A stretch of 35,034 nt of DNA from positions 1 through 35,034 of the forward strand of contig VGDZ01000029.1 in assembly GCA_016869515.1 (NCBI GenBank), given 5' to 3'. The position numbers were made by a program, and so were the translations under genes. Below are positions 1-7,190 of the stretch, piece after piece (within the stretch, counting starts at the first letter, position 1; each line of letters opens with the position of its first letter). The notes beneath the pieces were generated by a model that saw only the letters and a list, made by a program, of their open reading frames with translations, did not search any database and had not been told where the DNA came from. The stretch is from Alphaproteobacteria bacterium (lineage in GTDB: Bacteria; Pseudomonadota; Alphaproteobacteria; VGDZ01).

Positions 1-249
1 GACGCCCGCCCCCGCATCCGCAACAATGCTGAGGCCGACGGCGAGGTGCTGGCGCGCGTCGCCGATCCCGACGCCGCCGGCCGCAAGCTGCTGGCCGAGG
101 CGGCGGATCGGCTGCGCTTCTCGGCCCGCGGCTATCACCGCGTGCTGCGCGTCGCCCGCACCCTGGCCGATCTCGACGGCAGCGAAAGCGTCGGCCGCAT
201 CCACATCGCCGAGGCGGTCAGCTACCGCCAACTTCCGGCCGGGCGGTAA
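1..249 (+). CDS. comM: ComM / YifB-family Mg-chelatase-like AAA ATPase, C-terminal fragment
   Basis: The last 82 codons of a gene entering from the left edge, ending at TAA. The residues include FSARGYHRVLRVARTLADL and a late IHIAEAVSYR, the typical C-terminal Mg-chelatase subunit domain of ComM/YifB. This family is a hexameric helicase that aids branch migration during natural transformation; that role is family knowledge. The N-terminal part and Walker motifs lie outside the window. The end is complete. A second, slightly diverged copy of the last 53 codons lies at 1384-1545, beyond an inserted cassette. Left and right copies differ by conservative changes (A/N, R/K) and silent ones, so both look like the end of a once-functional comM. 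Confidence 0.88.
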   Translation, partial: DARPRIRNNAEADGEVLARVADPDAAGRKLLAEAADRLRFSARGYHRVLRVARTLADLDGSESVGRIHIAEAVSYRQLPAGR

Positions 250-388
250 TTCCCCCGCCGCGCTACACTGGCGCCATGACGATTCGGGACTGGGCGTGAG
301 CGCGCTGGCGGCGGCGCTGCTGCCCTTCGGGCGGCCGCGCGTGCTGGCGGTACTGGCGATGGGCTTCGCCAGCGGCCTGCCGCTGGCG
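88..388 (+). repeat. Left copy of 301-bp imperfect direct repeat (comM end plus ampG start)
   Basis: This segment aligns without gaps to 1384-1684, at a constant offset of 1296 bp. By eye there are 14 mismatches: nine in the first 33 bp and five in the remaining 268 bp. It spans the last codons of comM, the short intergenic gap and the first 31 codons of ampG. Similarity stops abruptly at 388/389, where the low-GC cassette begins. Confidence 0.93.
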
Positions 389-394
389 GAATAG
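296..394 (+). pseudogene. Truncated ampG 5' fragment
   Basis: GTG start, 32 codons, then TAG at 392-394. The first 31 codons match the start of the intact ampG at 1592 except for one silent change (GTA/GTG). After the codons for GLPLA the sequence leaves ampG and runs into the inserted cassette, where a glutamate codon and a stop follow. It would encode only the first membrane segment and is not expected to function. It marks the left junction of the cassette. Confidence 0.88.
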
Positions 395-445
395 GGTAGA
401 GTGCCGGGTCGGCACCTGCTGAAGGTTCTCACCTATTTGCGCCGC

Positions 446-1249
446 CTATCGAAGTTCGTGGCCGAACACTACTTCATTGGACACTTCGCGAGTGACGCTG
501 TCGATCAGCATGAAGCGAACACGATGTTTCGGAACGCAATGAAATACTGACTTGAAACGCTGTGTGACTCCAGATTCTCCTTCTCGAAACCTTCGGGCCA
601 TAGAGCCAGCAGCATTCGCAATGAAGTCGGCGACCTCAAGGCCTGGTTCCTTAGCCCGCTTTGTCATCAGGCAATGGTCCACCGCAATTCGCCGCCCGCC
701 CTCCTCAATATCCAATTGGCCAAAGTACTGTTGGATAAATGGGTCGGCCCGCTCAGAGCTCTCAAATATCAAGGCGATTGACCGAAATGGCGTCTGTGCG
801 GCGAGTTGAATCAACTGCTTCTTTACCATCTCGAAAACCGGCTGCATGAGAATGAGGTCGGACGGATAAGAAGTTTTATCGGTCACTACAGTCGCAAATC
901 GATGGAATACGTGCGTCGCGAAGAACCGAGACATCGCATTCATTCCTTCCGCAGACGCTTTCGTGCTGAATTCACTCGCATGTAGTGGCGCGTCATGATC
1001 GCCGTTGATCATCTCTCGCAATTTACGCCATGCCGGGACTAGAACATTCACATATACATTCGACATGATGCAAAGGCCGCCGAGTCCATAGAACTGCTGG
1101 TTTCCCGCAAGTCGCTCGTGACCTGTGTCGTCCACGAAGATCAAGAGACAGTCATTGCTAGGTTTAAGTTCCGTGCTCGAGATCAATACACGCTCCCAAT
1201 TTTCCTTTGTAAGTCGGTGCCGCTTCTGCGTTCGGACTTTAGTGTCCAA
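446..1249 (-). CDS. DUF3800-like protein (cassette cargo)
   Basis: 267 residues from a TTG start; no ATG precedes residue 62 and the core motif begins near residue 39, so an upstream start is needed. An N-terminal IFVDDTG (37-43) corresponds to the D-E-S/T-G motif that opens DUF3800 proteins. PLHASEF (88-94) matches their Leu-His motif, and LEVADFIANAAGSMARR (204-220) matches the C-terminal LQ-x-AD-hydrophobic motif. Acidic residues at D40, D41, D171-like and D208 would suit an RNase-H-like metal site, which is inference. DUF3800 genes are often found in accessory and defence regions, but no function is established. Codon use and GC differ from all other genes in the window. The ORF stays open upstream to 1294 but offers no better start. 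Confidence 0.75.
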   Translation of the reverse strand: MDTKVRTQKRHRLTKENWERVLISSTELKPSNDCLLIFVDDTGHERLAGNQQFYGLGGLCIMSNVYVNVLVPAWRKLREMINGDHDAPLHASEFSTKASAEGMNAMSRFFATHVFHRFATVVTDKTSYPSDLILMQPVFEMVKKQLIQLAAQTPFRSIALIFESSERADPFIQQYFGQLDIEEGGRRIAVDHCLMTKRAKEPGLEVADFIANAAGSMARRFREGESGVTQRFKSVFHCVPKHRVRFMLIDSVTREVSNEVVFGHELR

Positions 1250-1304
1250 AATCTTGAGGCTCGTGCCCCGGCCCCTCGTTAAGGCGACTCGATGTCAATG
1301 GACC

Positions 1305-1313
1305 ATTATATCA
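1305..1313 (-). promoter_or_regulatory. Candidate extended -10 promoter for the DUF3800-like gene
   Basis: Read on the minus strand the sequence is TGATATAAT: a perfect -10 hexamer with the TGn extension. It lies about 55 bp before the TTG start. No convincing -35 is seen, which is acceptable for extended -10 promoters. It lies inside the cassette, so the cargo could be transcribed independently of host genes. Confidence 0.5.
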
Positions 1314-1383
1314 TTCGGCTGCCGACACTTTTTGTATGTAGAAGATCACTGGCCACCACCTAAGTGGTAGACGCGTATTGATA

Positions 1384-1545
1384 CTGCTTAACGAGGCCGC
1401 CGATCGCCTGAAATTCTCGGCCCGCGGCTATCACCGCGTGCTGCGCGTCGCCCGCACCCTGGCCGATCTCGACGGCAGCGAAAGCGTCGGCCGCATTCAC
1501 ATCGCCGAAGCGGTCAGCTACCGCCAACTTCCGGCCGGGCGGTAG
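1384..1545 (+). pseudogene. Duplicated comM 3' fragment
   Basis: 53 codons in the comM frame, from LLNEAADRLKFSARGY to the TAG at 1543-1545, with no start codon or upstream part. It is a remnant of the comM end on the far side of the cassette. Its amino-acid differences from the left copy are conservative, consistent with descent from a functional comM of a related strain. Confidence 0.85.
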
Positions 1546-1571
1546 CTCCCCCGCCGCGCTACACTGGCGCC

Positions 1572-1595
1572 ATGACGATTCGGGACTGGGCGTGA
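1572..1595 (+). other. Seven-codon upstream ORF overlapping the ampG start
   Basis: ATG ACG ATT CGG GAC TGG GCG TGA. Its stop overlaps the ampG GTG start as GTGA, a layout used for translational coupling. An identical small frame precedes the truncated ampG copy at 276-299, so the arrangement predates the duplication. The peptide resembles the start of longer AmpG proteins, so an old frameshift is an alternative. Confidence 0.4.
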
Positions 1596-2848
1596 GCGCG
1601 CTGGCGGCGGCGCTGCTGCCCTTCGGGCGGCCGCGCGTGCTGGCGGTGCTGGCGATGGGCTTCGCCAGCGGCCTGCCGCTGGCGCTGGGCGCGGGCACGC
1701 TGTCGGTGTGGCTGGCGGAAAGCGGCGTCAGCCGCGCCACCATCGGCCTGTTCGCCGCCATCGGCACGCCCTATGCGCTCAAGTTCCTGTGGGCGCCGTT
1801 GGTCGACCGGCTGCCGCTGCCGCTCTTGGGCAGGCTGCTGGGAAGGCGCCGGTCCTGGCTGCTCCTGACGCAAGCCGCGGTGATCGTCTGCATGATCGGC
1901 CTCGGCCAAGCCGATCCCCGGATCGATCCGCTGCTGACGGCCACCTGGGCGGTCGCGTTGGCGATTTCGTCCGCCAGCCAGGACATCGTGGTCGATGCCT
2001 GGCGGGTCGAGATCCTGGAGCGCGAGCTGCTGCCGGCCGGCGCGACCTCGGTGCAACTCGGTTATCGCATCGCCATGCTGACCTCGGGCGCGGGCGCGCT
2101 CTATCTCGCCAGCGCCTTGCCATGGGCCACGGTCTACGCCGTCATGGCCGGGCTGATGGCGATCGGCGTGGCGACGACGCTGCTGGGGCCCGAGCCCGAG
2201 GCGCCGGCCGATCCCGGCGGCGGCATCGGCCAGCGCATCGTCCGCGCCGTGGTCCATCCCTTCGTCGAATTCGCCGGCCGGCCGGGCTGGCCGGTGCTGC
2301 TGGCCTTCGTGCTGTTCTACAAGTTCGGCGATGCCTTCGCCGGCGTGATGACCAATCCCTTCCTGGTCGACATCGGCTTTTCCAAGATCGACATCGCCAA
2401 CGTCGCCAAGGTGTTCGGCTTCGGCGCCTCGCTGGCCGGCCTGGCCTTGGGCGGCGTCTTGATGAACGCGGTCGGCGTGACGCGCGCGCTGTGGATCTGC
2501 GGCATTCTGCAATTGCTCACCAATCTGATGTTCGTCGTCCAGGCCCGCGCCGGCGCCGATCTCGGCCTGTTGGCGCTGACCATCGGCCTCGAGAACCTGG
2601 CCGGCGGCATGGGCTCGGCGGCCTTCGTCGCCTATATCTCGGGGCTGTGCGCGCTGTCCTACACCGCCACCCAATACGCGCTGCTGTCGGCGCTGGCGGC
2701 GGTCGGGCGCACGCTGCTGTCGACCAGCTCGGGCTGGATCGCGCAGCAGCTGGGCTGGGAGTTGTTCTTCGTCGCCAGCGCCGTCGCCGCAATTCCCGGG
2801 CTCTTGCTGCTGGCCTGGGTCGGCCGGATCGAGCGCGCCGGGCGATGA
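1592..2848 (+). CDS. ampG: AmpG-family MFS permease
   Basis: 418 residues and about 12 hydrophobic segments, the usual MFS size. The N-terminal stretch [19 protein letters not shown] and the following [13 protein letters not shown] are characteristic of AmpG, the inner-membrane permease that imports anhydro-muropeptides for cell-wall recycling. [10 protein letters not shown] and [15 protein letters not shown] open the second half, as in AmpG. The start is GTG at 1592: the ATG at 1572 opens only a 7-codon frame (MTIRDWA) whose TGA overlaps this GTG as GTGA. The gene overlaps the following macrodomain gene by ATGA. Substrate is inferred from family; other AmpG/PucC-like permeases exist, so specificity is less certain than fold. 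Confidence 0.82.
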
Positions 2849-3360
2849 GCGTCGAGATCGTCGCCGGCGACATCACGCGGCTCGTGGTCGACGCCATCGT
2901 CAACGCCGCCAATGAGACCTTGCTGGGCGGCGGCGGAGTCGACGGCGCCATCCATCGCGCCGCCGGGCCCGACCTCTTGGCAGAATGCCGGACCCTGGGC
3001 GGCTGCCCGACCGGCCAGGCCAAGATCACGCGCGGCTATCGTCTCAAGGCGCGGCATGTCATCCACACCGTCGGCCCGATCTGGCAGGGCGGCGGCGCGG
3101 GCGAGGCGCGGCTGTTGGAATCCTGCTATCGCCGCTCGCTCGAACTGGCGGCCGAGCATGCGCTCGGCTCGATCGCCTTTCCGGCGATCTCGACCGGGGT
3201 CTACGGCTATCCGCTCGAGGCCGCGACCGAGATCGCGCTGGGCGTGGCCGAGGACTGGCTGGCGACCGGCCGCGCGCCCGCGCGGCTGGTGTTCGTCTGT
3301 TTCGGCGATGCCGCGCTGGCGACCTATCGCCGCATCTGGGCTGCCCGCGCCCGGGCATGA
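2845..3360 (+). CDS. Macrodomain protein, O-acetyl-ADP-ribose deacetylase-like
   Basis: 171 residues forming one macrodomain. VEIVAGDIT at the start, [20 protein letters not shown] around residues 23-42 (ADP-ribose binding, with catalytic-type Asn/Asp) and [12 protein letters not shown] in the second half are hallmark macrodomain motifs of the YmdB/MacroD type. These enzymes hydrolyse O-acetyl-ADP-ribose and remove ADP-ribose from proteins. The ATG overlaps the ampG stop (ATGA), and the gene's own TGA overlaps the rsmB start, so it is in a translationally coupled run. Link to cell-wall recycling or rRNA methylation is unknown. Confidence 0.9.
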
Positions 3361-4634
3361 GCCGCGCCGATCCCGCCCGCGACAAGGCGTTGGCGATCCT
3401 GGCGGCGGTGCTGGAACGCCGCCAGCCGCTAGATGCCTGGATGGGCGTGGCCGACGATCTGCCGGCGCGCGATCGTGCCTTTGTCCGGCTGATGGTGCTG
3501 ACGGTGCTGCGGCGGCTGGGGCAGATCGACGCCGCGCTGGCGGCGGCGTTGGATCGGCCGGATCGGAGGTTGCCGACCTCGGCGCGCCTGGCGCTGCGGC
3601 TGGGCGCCGCGCAACTGCTTTATCTCGGCACGCCGGCCCATGCCGCGGTCGATGCCGCCGCGGCCCAGGCCGGGCGGGTCAAGGCGATGCGAGGACTGGT
3701 CAACGCCGTGCTGCGGCGCATCGCCGGCAAGCCGCCGGCCGAGGCCGATGCGCTGCTCAATCTGCCGGACTGGCTGCGGGCGCGTTGGCTTGCGCATTAT
3801 GGCGAGGATGCGACCCGCGCCATTCTGGCGGTGCATCGCGCCGAGCCGCCGCTCGATCTCTCGGTCAAGCAGGATGCCGCCGGCTGGGCGGCGCGGCTGG
3901 GCGGCCGGGTGTTGGCCTCGGGCACGGTACGGATCGAGCGCGCGGGCGCGATCGAGGCGCTGGCTGGCTTTGCCGAGGGCGCGTGGTGGGTGCAGGATGC
4001 GGCAGCAGCACTGCCGGCCGCGCTGCTGGGCGATGTCGCGGGCAAGCGGGTGTTGGATCTGTGCGCCGCACCGGGCGGAAAGACCGCGCAATTGGCCGCG
4101 GCGGGCGCGCGGGTCACGGCGCTGGATCGGTCCGAGCCGCGCATGGCGCTGCTGCGGGCCAATCTCGAACGCTTGAATCTGGCGGCGGAGTGCGTCGTCG
4201 CCGATGCCGAAAGCTGGCGAGCGAGCGAGCCCTTTCCGATGGTGCTGCTGGACGCGCCTTGCAGCGCCACCGGCACCGTGCGCCGCCATCCCGACATTCC
4301 CTGGACCAAGCGGGCCGAGGACATCGTTCGGCTGGTGGCGCTGCAAGAGCGGCTGCTGGAGGCGGCGGTCGAATCGCTCGCGCCGGGCGGAACGCTGGTC
4401 TATGCGGTGTGCTCGCTCGAACCCGAGGAGGGACCGGAACGCATCGCCGCGCTGTTGGCGCGCAGGCCCGATCTGGCCCTGGACCCGATCGCGACGCTGC
4501 CTTTGGCGGTGACGCTGCGGCAGGGCGAGCTGCGCAGCCTGCCCAGCGACCTTGCCGTCGAGGGCGGAGTCGACGGCTTCTATGCGGCGCGGCTCAAGCG
4601 CGATACCAGGGCATCGAAGCTGACAAAAAGTTGA
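3357..4634 (+). CDS. rsmB: 16S rRNA m5C methyltransferase RsmB/Sun
   Basis: 425 residues, the usual length. The N-terminal part (about 8-135) is a NusB-like RNA-binding domain; the C-terminal part is a Rossmann methyltransferase. [11 protein letters not shown] (about 233-243) is the SAM-binding motif, [16 protein letters not shown] carries the motif IV Cys (near 302), and [12 protein letters not shown] the catalytic Cys (near 352). The two-cysteine arrangement is typical of RNA m5C methyltransferases; E. coli RsmB modifies C967 of 16S rRNA. The start overlaps the macrodomain stop by ATGA. In many alphaproteobacteria rsmB neighbours other genes, so this pairing may be local. Confidence 0.93.
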
Positions 4635-5750: not shown

Positions 5751-7190
5751 TCAGTCGCGCCCGTAGCTATCCTCGACTCGGACGATATCGTCCTCGCCCA
5801 AGTAGTCGCCGGACTGAATCTCGATCAGGCGGAGCGGGGTACTTTGGGGGTTTTCCAGCCGGTGGTGCGTGCCTGCCGGAATGAAGGTCGACTGGTTTTC
5901 CTCCAGCGTGAAGACCCGCTGGCCGACCGTCACTTGCGCGCGTCCTTGGACCACCACCCAATGTTCGGCGCGATGGGCGTGATATTGGAGCGAAAGCCGG
6001 CCGCCGGGTTTGACGACGATCTGTTTGACTTGGAAACGGTCTCCCGATTCGAGCCTTTGGAAAATGCCCCAGGGACGATGCGCCACCGGCGGGACGTCCG
6101 GTTCGTCATGACCCGTTTCTTTCAACCGTGCCACCAGGCGGCGGACATCCTGCGTGCGTTCGCGATCGGCGACCATGACGCTGTCGTCGGTGCAGACGAC
6201 CACCAGGTTGTTCACGCCCAGAACCGCCAACAGCCTGCGCTCGGAATGAAGATAATTGCCGCGACCGTCTTCGACCGTCACCTTGCCGACGACGACATTG
6301 CCGGTCGAGTCCTTGGCGCCGATGTGCCAGAGCTGATCGAAAGAGCCGACGTCGTTCCAGCCGAAATCCGCCGGCACCACCGCGGCGCGGTCGGTGCGCT
6401 CCATCACGGCGTAGTCGATTGACTGCGAGGGGCACGCATCCATCGCGGCCGAGTCGAGACGGACGAAATCGAGATCGCGTTTGGCGCGGTCGATCGCATC
6501 TTGGCATCGCCGCGCCATTTCCGGCTCGTAGCGCGCCAATGTGTCGAGATAACGCCGCGCCCGGAAGACGAACATGCCGCTGTTCCAGAGATGTTTGCGT
6601 TCGGCGACATAGCGCTCGGCCGTGGCGCGGTCGGGCTTTTCGACGAATTTGACGACTTCGAGGCAGTCACCGGCTTCGGCCAGGGGCGGGCCGGGCAGGA
6701 CATAGCCGTATCCGGTCTCGGCGCGGTCGGGGACGACGCCGAAGGTCACCAGAAAACCGCGATCGGCGCCGACCCGGGCCTTCTCCAACGCCGCCAGGAA
6801 GGCATCGGAGTTCCGGATCAGATGGTCGGTCGGCATCACCGCCAGCAGGGGATCGGCTTCCGCCTGCAAAGCGGCCAGGGCCGCAGCCGCGATCGCCGGC
6901 GCAGTGTTGCGACCGACCGGCTCAAGCACCAAGGCCGCCGGCCGCACGCCGATCTGATCGAGTTGCTCGGCGACGGCGAATCGATGCGCCGCGCTCGCCA
7001 CCACGATTGGCGGCCGAAATCGGGCCGGATCGGATACCCGCATCGCCGTCAGCTGAAGCAAGGTCGACTTGCCGGTCAGCGCCAGAAGTTGCTTGGGATA
7101 ATGCGTGCGCGACAACGGCCACAATCGGGTCCCGGCGCCGCCCGAGAGCAGCACGGGCGTGAACTTGTCCGCAGTCGATGGGCGCGTCAT
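5751..7190 (-). CDS. manC: Mannose-1-phosphate guanylyltransferase / mannose-6-phosphate isomerase
   Basis: About 479 residues, typical for the bifunctional type II enzymes (ManC/CpsB/AlgA). The N-terminal nucleotidyltransferase has LLSGGAGTRLWPLSR near residue 14 and VKFVEKPD in the middle. The C-terminal cupin has RPWGIF, FQVKQIVVKPGG and LQYHAHRAEHWVV with the metal-binding His residues. It makes GDP-mannose for polysaccharides or lipopolysaccharide. I chose ATG at 7190 because it gives the usual N-terminus; the frame stays open to a TTG at 7259 but the extra residues are not family-like. No other polysaccharide genes flank it except the WecA-like gene about 2 kb away. Confidence 0.93.
   Translation of the reverse strand: MTRPSTADKFTPVLLSGGAGTRLWPLSRTHYPKQLLALTGKSTLLQLTAMRVSDPARFRPPIVVASAAHRFAVAEQLDQIGVRPAALVLEPVGRNTAPAIAAAALAALQAEADPLLAVMPTDHLIRNSDAFLAALEKARVGADRGFLVTFGVVPDRAETGYGYVLPGPPLAEAGDCLEVVKFVEKPDRATAERYVAERKHLWNSGMFVFRARRYLDTLARYEPEMARRCQDAIDRAKRDLDFVRLDSAAMDACPSQSIDYAVMERTDRAAVVPADFGWNDVGSFDQLWHIGAKDSTGNVVVGKVTVEDGRGNYLHSERRLLAVLGVNNLVVVCTDDSVMVADRERTQDVRRLVARLKETGHDEPDVPPVAHRPWGIFQRLESGDRFQVKQIVVKPGGRLSLQYHAHRAEHWVVVQGRAQVTVGQRVFTLEENQSTFIPAGTHHRLENPQSTPLRLIEIQSGDYLGEDDIVRVEDSYGRD

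Follow-up and report, generated by a model that had tools for sequence, protein, structure and literature searches.

How a single accessory gene can enter a bacterial chromosome without a visible mobile element, and leave both of its new neighbours apparently unbroken, is the question raised by the locus described here. The stretch analysed (the window) is the complete contig VGDZ01000029.1 (C29 in our numbering; 35,034 bp) of the alphaproteobacterial assembly GCA_016869515.1 (genome G000), a draft of 166 contigs and 3.69 Mb with a completeness of 97.1% and an estimated contamination of 0.3%. Near its start, a low-GC cassette with one gene of the DUF3800 family lies between comM and the permease gene ampG, bracketed by imperfect direct repeats of host DNA. 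The best reading of this layout, to which we give a probability of about 45%, is insertion-duplication by one-sided homologous recombination in comM.

The repeats reported in the initial annotation are real and their coordinates exact (Table 1): the two copies are 95.3% identical over 301 nt at a spacing of 1296 (E 2e-136), and the longest exact run common to both is 101 bp. Mismatches, numbered on the left copy, occur at 93, 94, 95, 102, 105, 111, 115, 116 and 117 and then at 201, 213, 249, 250 and 352, so that nine lie within the initial 33 bp and the 268 bp that follow have five, the clustering that had been claimed. The ampG fragment of the left copy comprises 31 native codons and then runs into a stop at 394. 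The GTG of the complete ampG at 1592 lies inside the right copy, which does supply the native start of this gene, and the right copy retains the comM frame (LLNEAADRLKF, as compared with LLAEAADRLRF in the left copy). The annotation also had the left repeat completing comM. The last 53 codons and the stop are indeed in the left copy; the wholeness of the gene is less direct, as comM spans two contigs. The profile TIGR00368 (499 positions) was matched at 428-499 on C29 and at 1-416 on contig C69 (18762-19991, at the end of that contig), with about 11 profile positions, or codons, falling between them, and comparison of the contig ends revealed no exact overlap of 10 bases or more. We infer an intact comM, which the left copy would complete only if C69 adjoins C29. 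The assembly break inside comM may, among other causes, stem from strain variation at the locus. With comM read across the two contigs, the layout and the open reading frames (ORFs) support the view that the host duplication leaves both neighbours whole; it should be added that this outcome is automatic for any long target duplication.

The composition of the cassette (389-1380) supports its foreign origin, with a GC content of 51.5% vs 70.3% for positions 1701-35034 of the window. Similarly, GC at third codon positions is 0.56 in the cassette gene, lower than the 0.89-0.93 of ampG, the part of comM on C69 and the macro-domain gene. No long ORF other than the DUF3800 gene lies between the repeat copies, and neither an integrase nor a transposition gene was found in the insert with ORF and Pfam analysis, in agreement with the single-gene cassette lacking a visible mobility gene that had been described.

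Comparison with other genomes indicates that the DUF3800 gene is not ancestral at this locus. A search of 95 other class members gave a homologue of its protein in one of them, G055 (35% identity), and the family is patchy in the class, being present in 64 of 385 genomes, the window's genome included. In at least ten other genomes, counted by eye among the matches listed, and in the two ampG loci L057 and L067, comM and ampG lie less than 5 kb apart on one strand, with a gap from 136 bp (G051) to about 4.9 kb (G193 and G286). These 12 intervals, which come from ten genomes among the 385 searched and from two of 80 ampG loci, contained no match to the DUF3800 protein (0/12), and a match to the family was found in none of the ten genomes; the gene is not common to the relatives. 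The contents of the gap vary: an N6_N4 methyltransferase gene is present in L067, a metallo-beta-lactamase-fold gene together with a membrane protein (GPDPase_memb match below the cut-off) in L057, and an alpha/beta hydrolase in G280. In L067 (OY282368.1, 3777-5638), the N6_N4 DNA methyltransferase gene is accompanied by a 216-aa ORF in the opposite orientation, which lacks a Pfam match and may be a restriction partner.

The right junction carries the most direct trace of the donor. The nine differences in the first 33 bp of the right copy are spread across 11 codons, four of which carry silent changes and two conservative ones (A to N through two substitutions, R to K through three), with the frame kept; this piece looks like the product of orthologue divergence, not of decay. 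Positions 1394-1429 are 91.7% identical over 36 nt to comM of G034, vs 30/36 for the host's own comM, and positions 1396-1430 are 91.4% identical over 35 nt to comM of G104. Because comM of G034 fits the junction better than the host's own gene does, we conclude that the cassette was already flanked by foreign comM when it arrived. Judging from these alignments, a fragment of comM from another organism formed the right end of the incoming DNA, and the switch to host comM lies at or after 1417, in a conserved region of the gene. Foreign comM running into host comM represents a homology anchor at one end, an arrangement expected of homology-facilitated illegitimate recombination.

The five late mismatches (201, 213, 249, 250 and 352) are of a different nature. 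All five are transitions; those at 201, 213 and 352 are silent third positions, 249 distinguishes TAA from TAG, and 250 is situated just past the stop. At each of the three silent positions, it is the copy with the unused half of the gene that has the AT allele, a distribution that slow decay of an initially identical duplication would give.

According to the favoured reading, an accessory DUF3800 gene would have arrived on foreign DNA already bearing a comM 3' fragment beside it. This fragment would have paired with the most conserved stretch of host comM, FSARGYHRVLRVARTLADL, and crossed over near 1417 in one chromosome copy, and the other end of the incoming DNA would have been joined inside ampG (388) of another chromosome copy without long homology; we infer these crossing-over and end-joining steps. 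The product would be host comM, ampG start, cassette, comM end and ampG, with both genes whole, and the repeat copies would later have gathered a small number of GC-to-AT changes. By way of the flanking repeats, RecA could remove the cassette again. The process calls for no dedicated recombinase. The layout, the mismatch pattern, the closer fit of the right junction to comM of G034, the foreign composition of the cassette, the patchiness of DUF3800 in the class and two cases from other genomes (G025/G156 and G014, below) count for insertion-duplication, and the event resembles an uncommon side product of recombination with incoming DNA more than the work of a new mobile system.

The first of these cases concerns G156 and G025, which share one genus by their genome labels. 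In G156 (L158, G156:C49) the interval is empty: comM is followed by about 235 bp, a 418-aa gene and then ampG. In G025 (L157, G025:C117) the same interval is filled by two insertions. One is a PEMT/ICMT-type methyltransferase gene (PEMT, E 3.1e-15) bracketed by a 117-137-bp host duplication of 88% identity, which covers the start of the next gene and is single in G156; the other is a HicB-like ORF that scores below the cut-off of its family. At 14 sites both G025 copies carry a shared difference from G156, vs 5 and 6 sites at which a single copy matches G156; the duplication therefore arose after the split of the two lineages. We consider the G025 event to be of the same kind as that in the window, since in both a one-gene insert between comM and ampG lies inside a host duplication covering the start of the next gene, although the cargo, the length and identity of the repeat and the adjacent HicB-like ORF set G025 apart. 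Other cargo between repeats and an empty site are thus both represented within one genus. The second case, G014 (a 3-contig genome), has a repeat of 142 bp and 98.6% identity, between whose copies lies an insert with a 190-aa ORF without Pfam match; the 3' end of a convergent GNAT-type gene is duplicated as well.

Further comM flanks show related layouts. In G226 (L155, G226:C239:5200-11500), a 561-bp duplication of the comM 3' end (94%) surrounds an insert of low GC that carries a gene of serine-resolvase type and one of helix-turn-helix type, and both copies end in a 50-bp palindrome-like repeat. In G186, 89 bp at 79% accompany a low-GC insert at the comM 3' end. G078 (L221, G078:C108:28557-34557) possesses extra comM C-terminal ends (features at 2309-2368, 3329-3392 and 4471-4543): a papain-type peptidase gene (PF00112) and an SDR gene, opposite to comM, are each followed by a complete, diverged comM C-terminal end with its own stop, which looks like serial integration at the comM 3' end. 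A decayed comM C-terminal end, IAKALLYRRFTVRR, is located in G039 (L226, G039:C2:153045-159045, about 2105-2155) some 2.3 kb downstream of comM, past glutaminase and DUF2252 genes. The boundaries of the duplications vary, from the last 53 comM codons in the window to about 160 codons in G226 and about 27-30 in G014, which argues against one fixed attachment site.

The initial annotation had named comM as a known insertion hotspot in other bacteria; for this class such a role was not established. A match to the comM C-terminus was found in 312 of 385 class genomes and two matches in six of them, in tandem on one contig in G000, G014 and G226, on different contigs in G099 and G349, and as overlapping matches in different frames in G245. 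Tandem second C-termini (3/312, the window's genome included) compare with at most 1/224 (G020) for the control RapZ, with Fisher p of 0.64, or of 0.27 if G020 is not tandem. We also took 120 comM neighbourhoods in list order down to G034, of which 116 were testable; G123, G098, G219 and G043 fell within that range but were set aside because contig ends were too close. A comM 3'-end remnant was present in 2/116 (G039 and G078) vs 3/629 control genes with the same filter (p 0.17). Addition of the seven genomes of the synteny set, which stood outside the 116 (G156, G025, G115, G280, G358, G186 and G193), and among which G186 also passed, gave 3/123 vs 3/629, a roughly fivefold, non-significant excess (Fisher p 0.06). 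One control, L268, is a lipoyl-domain repeat of pyruvate dehydrogenase genes, read as wrong strand, and p is 0.03 without it. Controls were 80 ampG loci (not all from Alphaproteobacteria), 15 random stretches and 20 stretches of G000. Direct-repeat scans were positive for 0/15 random stretches (281 kb), 3/80 ampG loci (913 kb) and 1/60 of the first comM neighbourhoods. Finally, a short comM-end pattern had five same-strand matches (two mismatches or fewer) and no antisense match at 75 loci downstream of comM, three of the four loci behind these matches having been picked for their repeats. Altogether, the counts lean to a weak excess at comM and are suggestive at most.

A genome-wide habit of insertion-duplication was considered as well and rejected. 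The same repeat filter applied to 400 kb of the 3.69 Mb (contigs 1-5 of the window's genome) returned three other repeat pairs. Judged by their ORFs and alignments, these represent paralogous permeases, lipoyl domains and a 141-bp repeat that is dispersed, and none was read as an insert inside duplicated host DNA. The last of these (L270, G000:C5:60001-80000; 2364-2504 and 6828-6968) is palindrome-rich, with 96% identity, and is probably a dispersed element resembling repetitive extragenic palindromes or miniature inverted-repeat transposable elements (REP/MITE-like).

The initial annotation had proposed a single crossover of a circular molecule with a comM-ampG segment from a related strain. 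In such a Campbell-type event, the circle or excised cassette would be integrated by RecA at the host comM-ampG junction, the late mismatches being strain alleles. Long direct repeats of host DNA around an insert are what such an insertion-duplication produces, the mismatches look like alleles of working genes, and in G226 the 561-bp, 94% repeat of the comM end surrounds an insert with a serine-resolvase-type gene. We nevertheless regard this explanation as unlikely: the donor segment would have to be a mosaic, with an identity of 73% in the first 33 bp that rises to 98% in the next 268 bp; no gene that could form a circle was seen in the insert; and in G025 the derived sites common to both copies speak for a duplication of native DNA. 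The diverged 33 bp is more simply the leftover of a foreign homology arm. The foreign cassette, the duplication, the missing mobility gene and the variable gap stand from that interpretation; its circle from a related strain is the less probable part. An assembly chimera, with strain variants misjoined near a contig end, would agree with the 166-contig draft, with a contig whose start is 87 bp ahead of the repeat and inside comM, and with silent mismatches, which are what strain mixing gives. It is quite unlikely, given that a longest shared run of 101 bp is resolvable by longer assembly words, that estimated contamination is 0.3%, that mixing of strains of one species leaves the foreign 33-bp comM piece unexplained, and that the G025/G156 parallel shows such loci to occur.

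The comM 3' end could, alternatively, be the attachment site of a site-specific element without its own integrase and be restored on insertion. The two successive one-gene stretches of G078, each with a complete diverged comM end after it, the decayed end in G039 and the fivefold, non-significant remnant excess at comM (3/123 vs 3/629, p 0.06) speak for it; given boundaries that differ among cases (53, about 160 and about 27-30 codons), an integrase that was not found here and a repeat that extends past the gene end into ampG, we think it very improbable. A bolder reading makes the comM 3' flank a recombinase-free capture site in some Alphaproteobacteria, where a comM 3' fragment serves as a portable homology arm beside accessory genes and allows them to integrate next to any host comM, comM is left whole, the arm is regenerated and one-gene cassettes accumulate, as in G078. 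It is the serial comM ends of G078 that bring this reading up, and its chances, raised a little by the weak excess at comM, seem to us slight.

Several points weigh against the favoured insertion-duplication. Because random GC-to-AT changes are often silent (at 40/94 comM sites and 37/75 ampG sites), the silence of the late mismatches is weak evidence, and strain alleles fit them nearly as well. No DprA match was found in the genome (97% complete) and the ComEC match is partial and below the cut-off; uptake by transformation is therefore not supported and another entry route would be needed. At the left junction only the host side (CTGGCG) is readable. The basis is a draft assembly, and the relatives compared are no closer than the same class, so that none is close enough to polarise the five late mismatches.

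Table 1. Features around the DUF3800 cassette (positions in the 35,034-bp window)
Feature	Position	Strand	Basis
comM 3' end (82 codons and TAA); contig starts inside comM	1..249	+	PF13335, E 1.2e-23
Left repeat copy: last 53 codons and stop of comM, intergenic region, first 31 codons of ampG	88..388	+	Repeat alignment, ORFs
Cassette left end; GC-rich hairpin 401-415 downstream of the DUF3800 stop	389..448
DUF3800 gene, 267 aa from TTG 1249; D40, G43 and D208 kept	446..1249	-	PF12686, alignment, structure model
Extended -10 promoter-like sequence TGATATAAT, for the DUF3800 gene	1305..1313 (read 1313-1305)	-	Consensus match only
Foreign comM piece of 33 bp (LLNEAADRLKF), 24/33 bases identical to left copy	1384..1416	+
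Right repeat copy: comM 3' remnant (stop TAG 1543-1545), intergenic region, native ampG start	1384..1684	+
ampG-type major facilitator superfamily (MFS) permease, complete, 418 aa, GTG start	1592..2848	+	PF13000, PF07690

The assignment of the cassette gene to DUF3800 was confirmed by PF12686 (29.9 bits vs a curated cut-off of 21, E 1.1e-6). In an alignment of 19 proteins, i.e. that of the window and 18 from 31 other DUF3800 loci, D40, G43 and D208 (a D-x-x-G near the N-terminus and a late AD) are invariant. The structure model (pLDDT 73) has its best PDB match in RNase HII, a class II RNase H (E 7e-5, TM 0.42 and 0.49), which predicts an RNase H-like fold from a model of modest quality. DUF3800 proteins with an RNase H fold and a rearranged catalytic site, found beside a Cas12a2 branch, are described in PMC10910872; they share family and fold with the window's protein, which differs in being encoded by a lone gene between repeats. 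A defensive or selfish nuclease function is speculative. No known defence model was matched with PADLOC, nor was any phage family matched; homologues of the protein in plasmids, phages and IMG/VR were absent at the limits used, and a search with Rfam for a DUF3800 non-coding RNA in positions 240-1700 gave no match.

The promoter attributed to the cassette consists of a perfect extended -10 (TGATATAAT) upstream of the DUF3800 gene, and a scan with two hexamers found no site there. The hairpin beyond the stop lacks a T tail, and its fold is not clearly better than those of shuffled sequences. That DUF3800 cassettes are generally bracketed by repeats was not convincing either: among 31 other loci (with approximate gene limits for nine), 30 of them with enough flank, repeat scores were 71 for L297 and 44 for L276, vs a control 99th percentile of 45. 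In L297 (G052:C75), the DUF3800 gene lies inside a 63-bp direct repeat of 82.5% identity (1190-1252 and 2164-2226), the right copy of which overlaps the 3' end of a neighbouring ORF.

Homology-facilitated illegitimate recombination and insertion-duplication are known from transformation work, and the laboratory cases mostly delete host DNA. The window resembles them in that one end was apparently joined by homology and the other without long homology, with foreign DNA added, and differs in the 301 bp of host DNA duplicated and in competence being unsupported in its genome. With integrative islands at gene 3' ends the locus shares the regenerated end of the host gene (here comM across two contigs); an integrase gene was not found among the ORFs or by Pfam. 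Tn6022 and Tsy insert at the Walker B motif of comM and interrupt the gene (PMC10293859), and in Acinetobacter baumannii comM is often found interrupted, in some cases with defence genes (PMC11472951). These Tn6022/AbaR islands and Tsy, which carry their own transposition genes, have in common with the window the comM locus and a cargo that can be accessory or defence genes, whereas the window's insert lies past the comM stop, in the ampG start, and comM is apparently intact; Tn7-like or Tsy features, namely insertion at Walker B and transposition genes between the repeats, were not observed. No paper on direct-repeat genomic islands at comM in Alphaproteobacteria was found, looser matches having been surveyed in part, and prior publication is possible.

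The locus can be seen as a readable scar of the entry of a single accessory gene into the chromosome without a visible mobile element and with its neighbours unbroken. The foreign comM leftover would mark the homology arm and the host duplication the unequal join, and the empty and filled states of the same interval within one genus make the process testable. If the comM flank were a preferred capture site, this would explain accessory genes beside comM without transposases.

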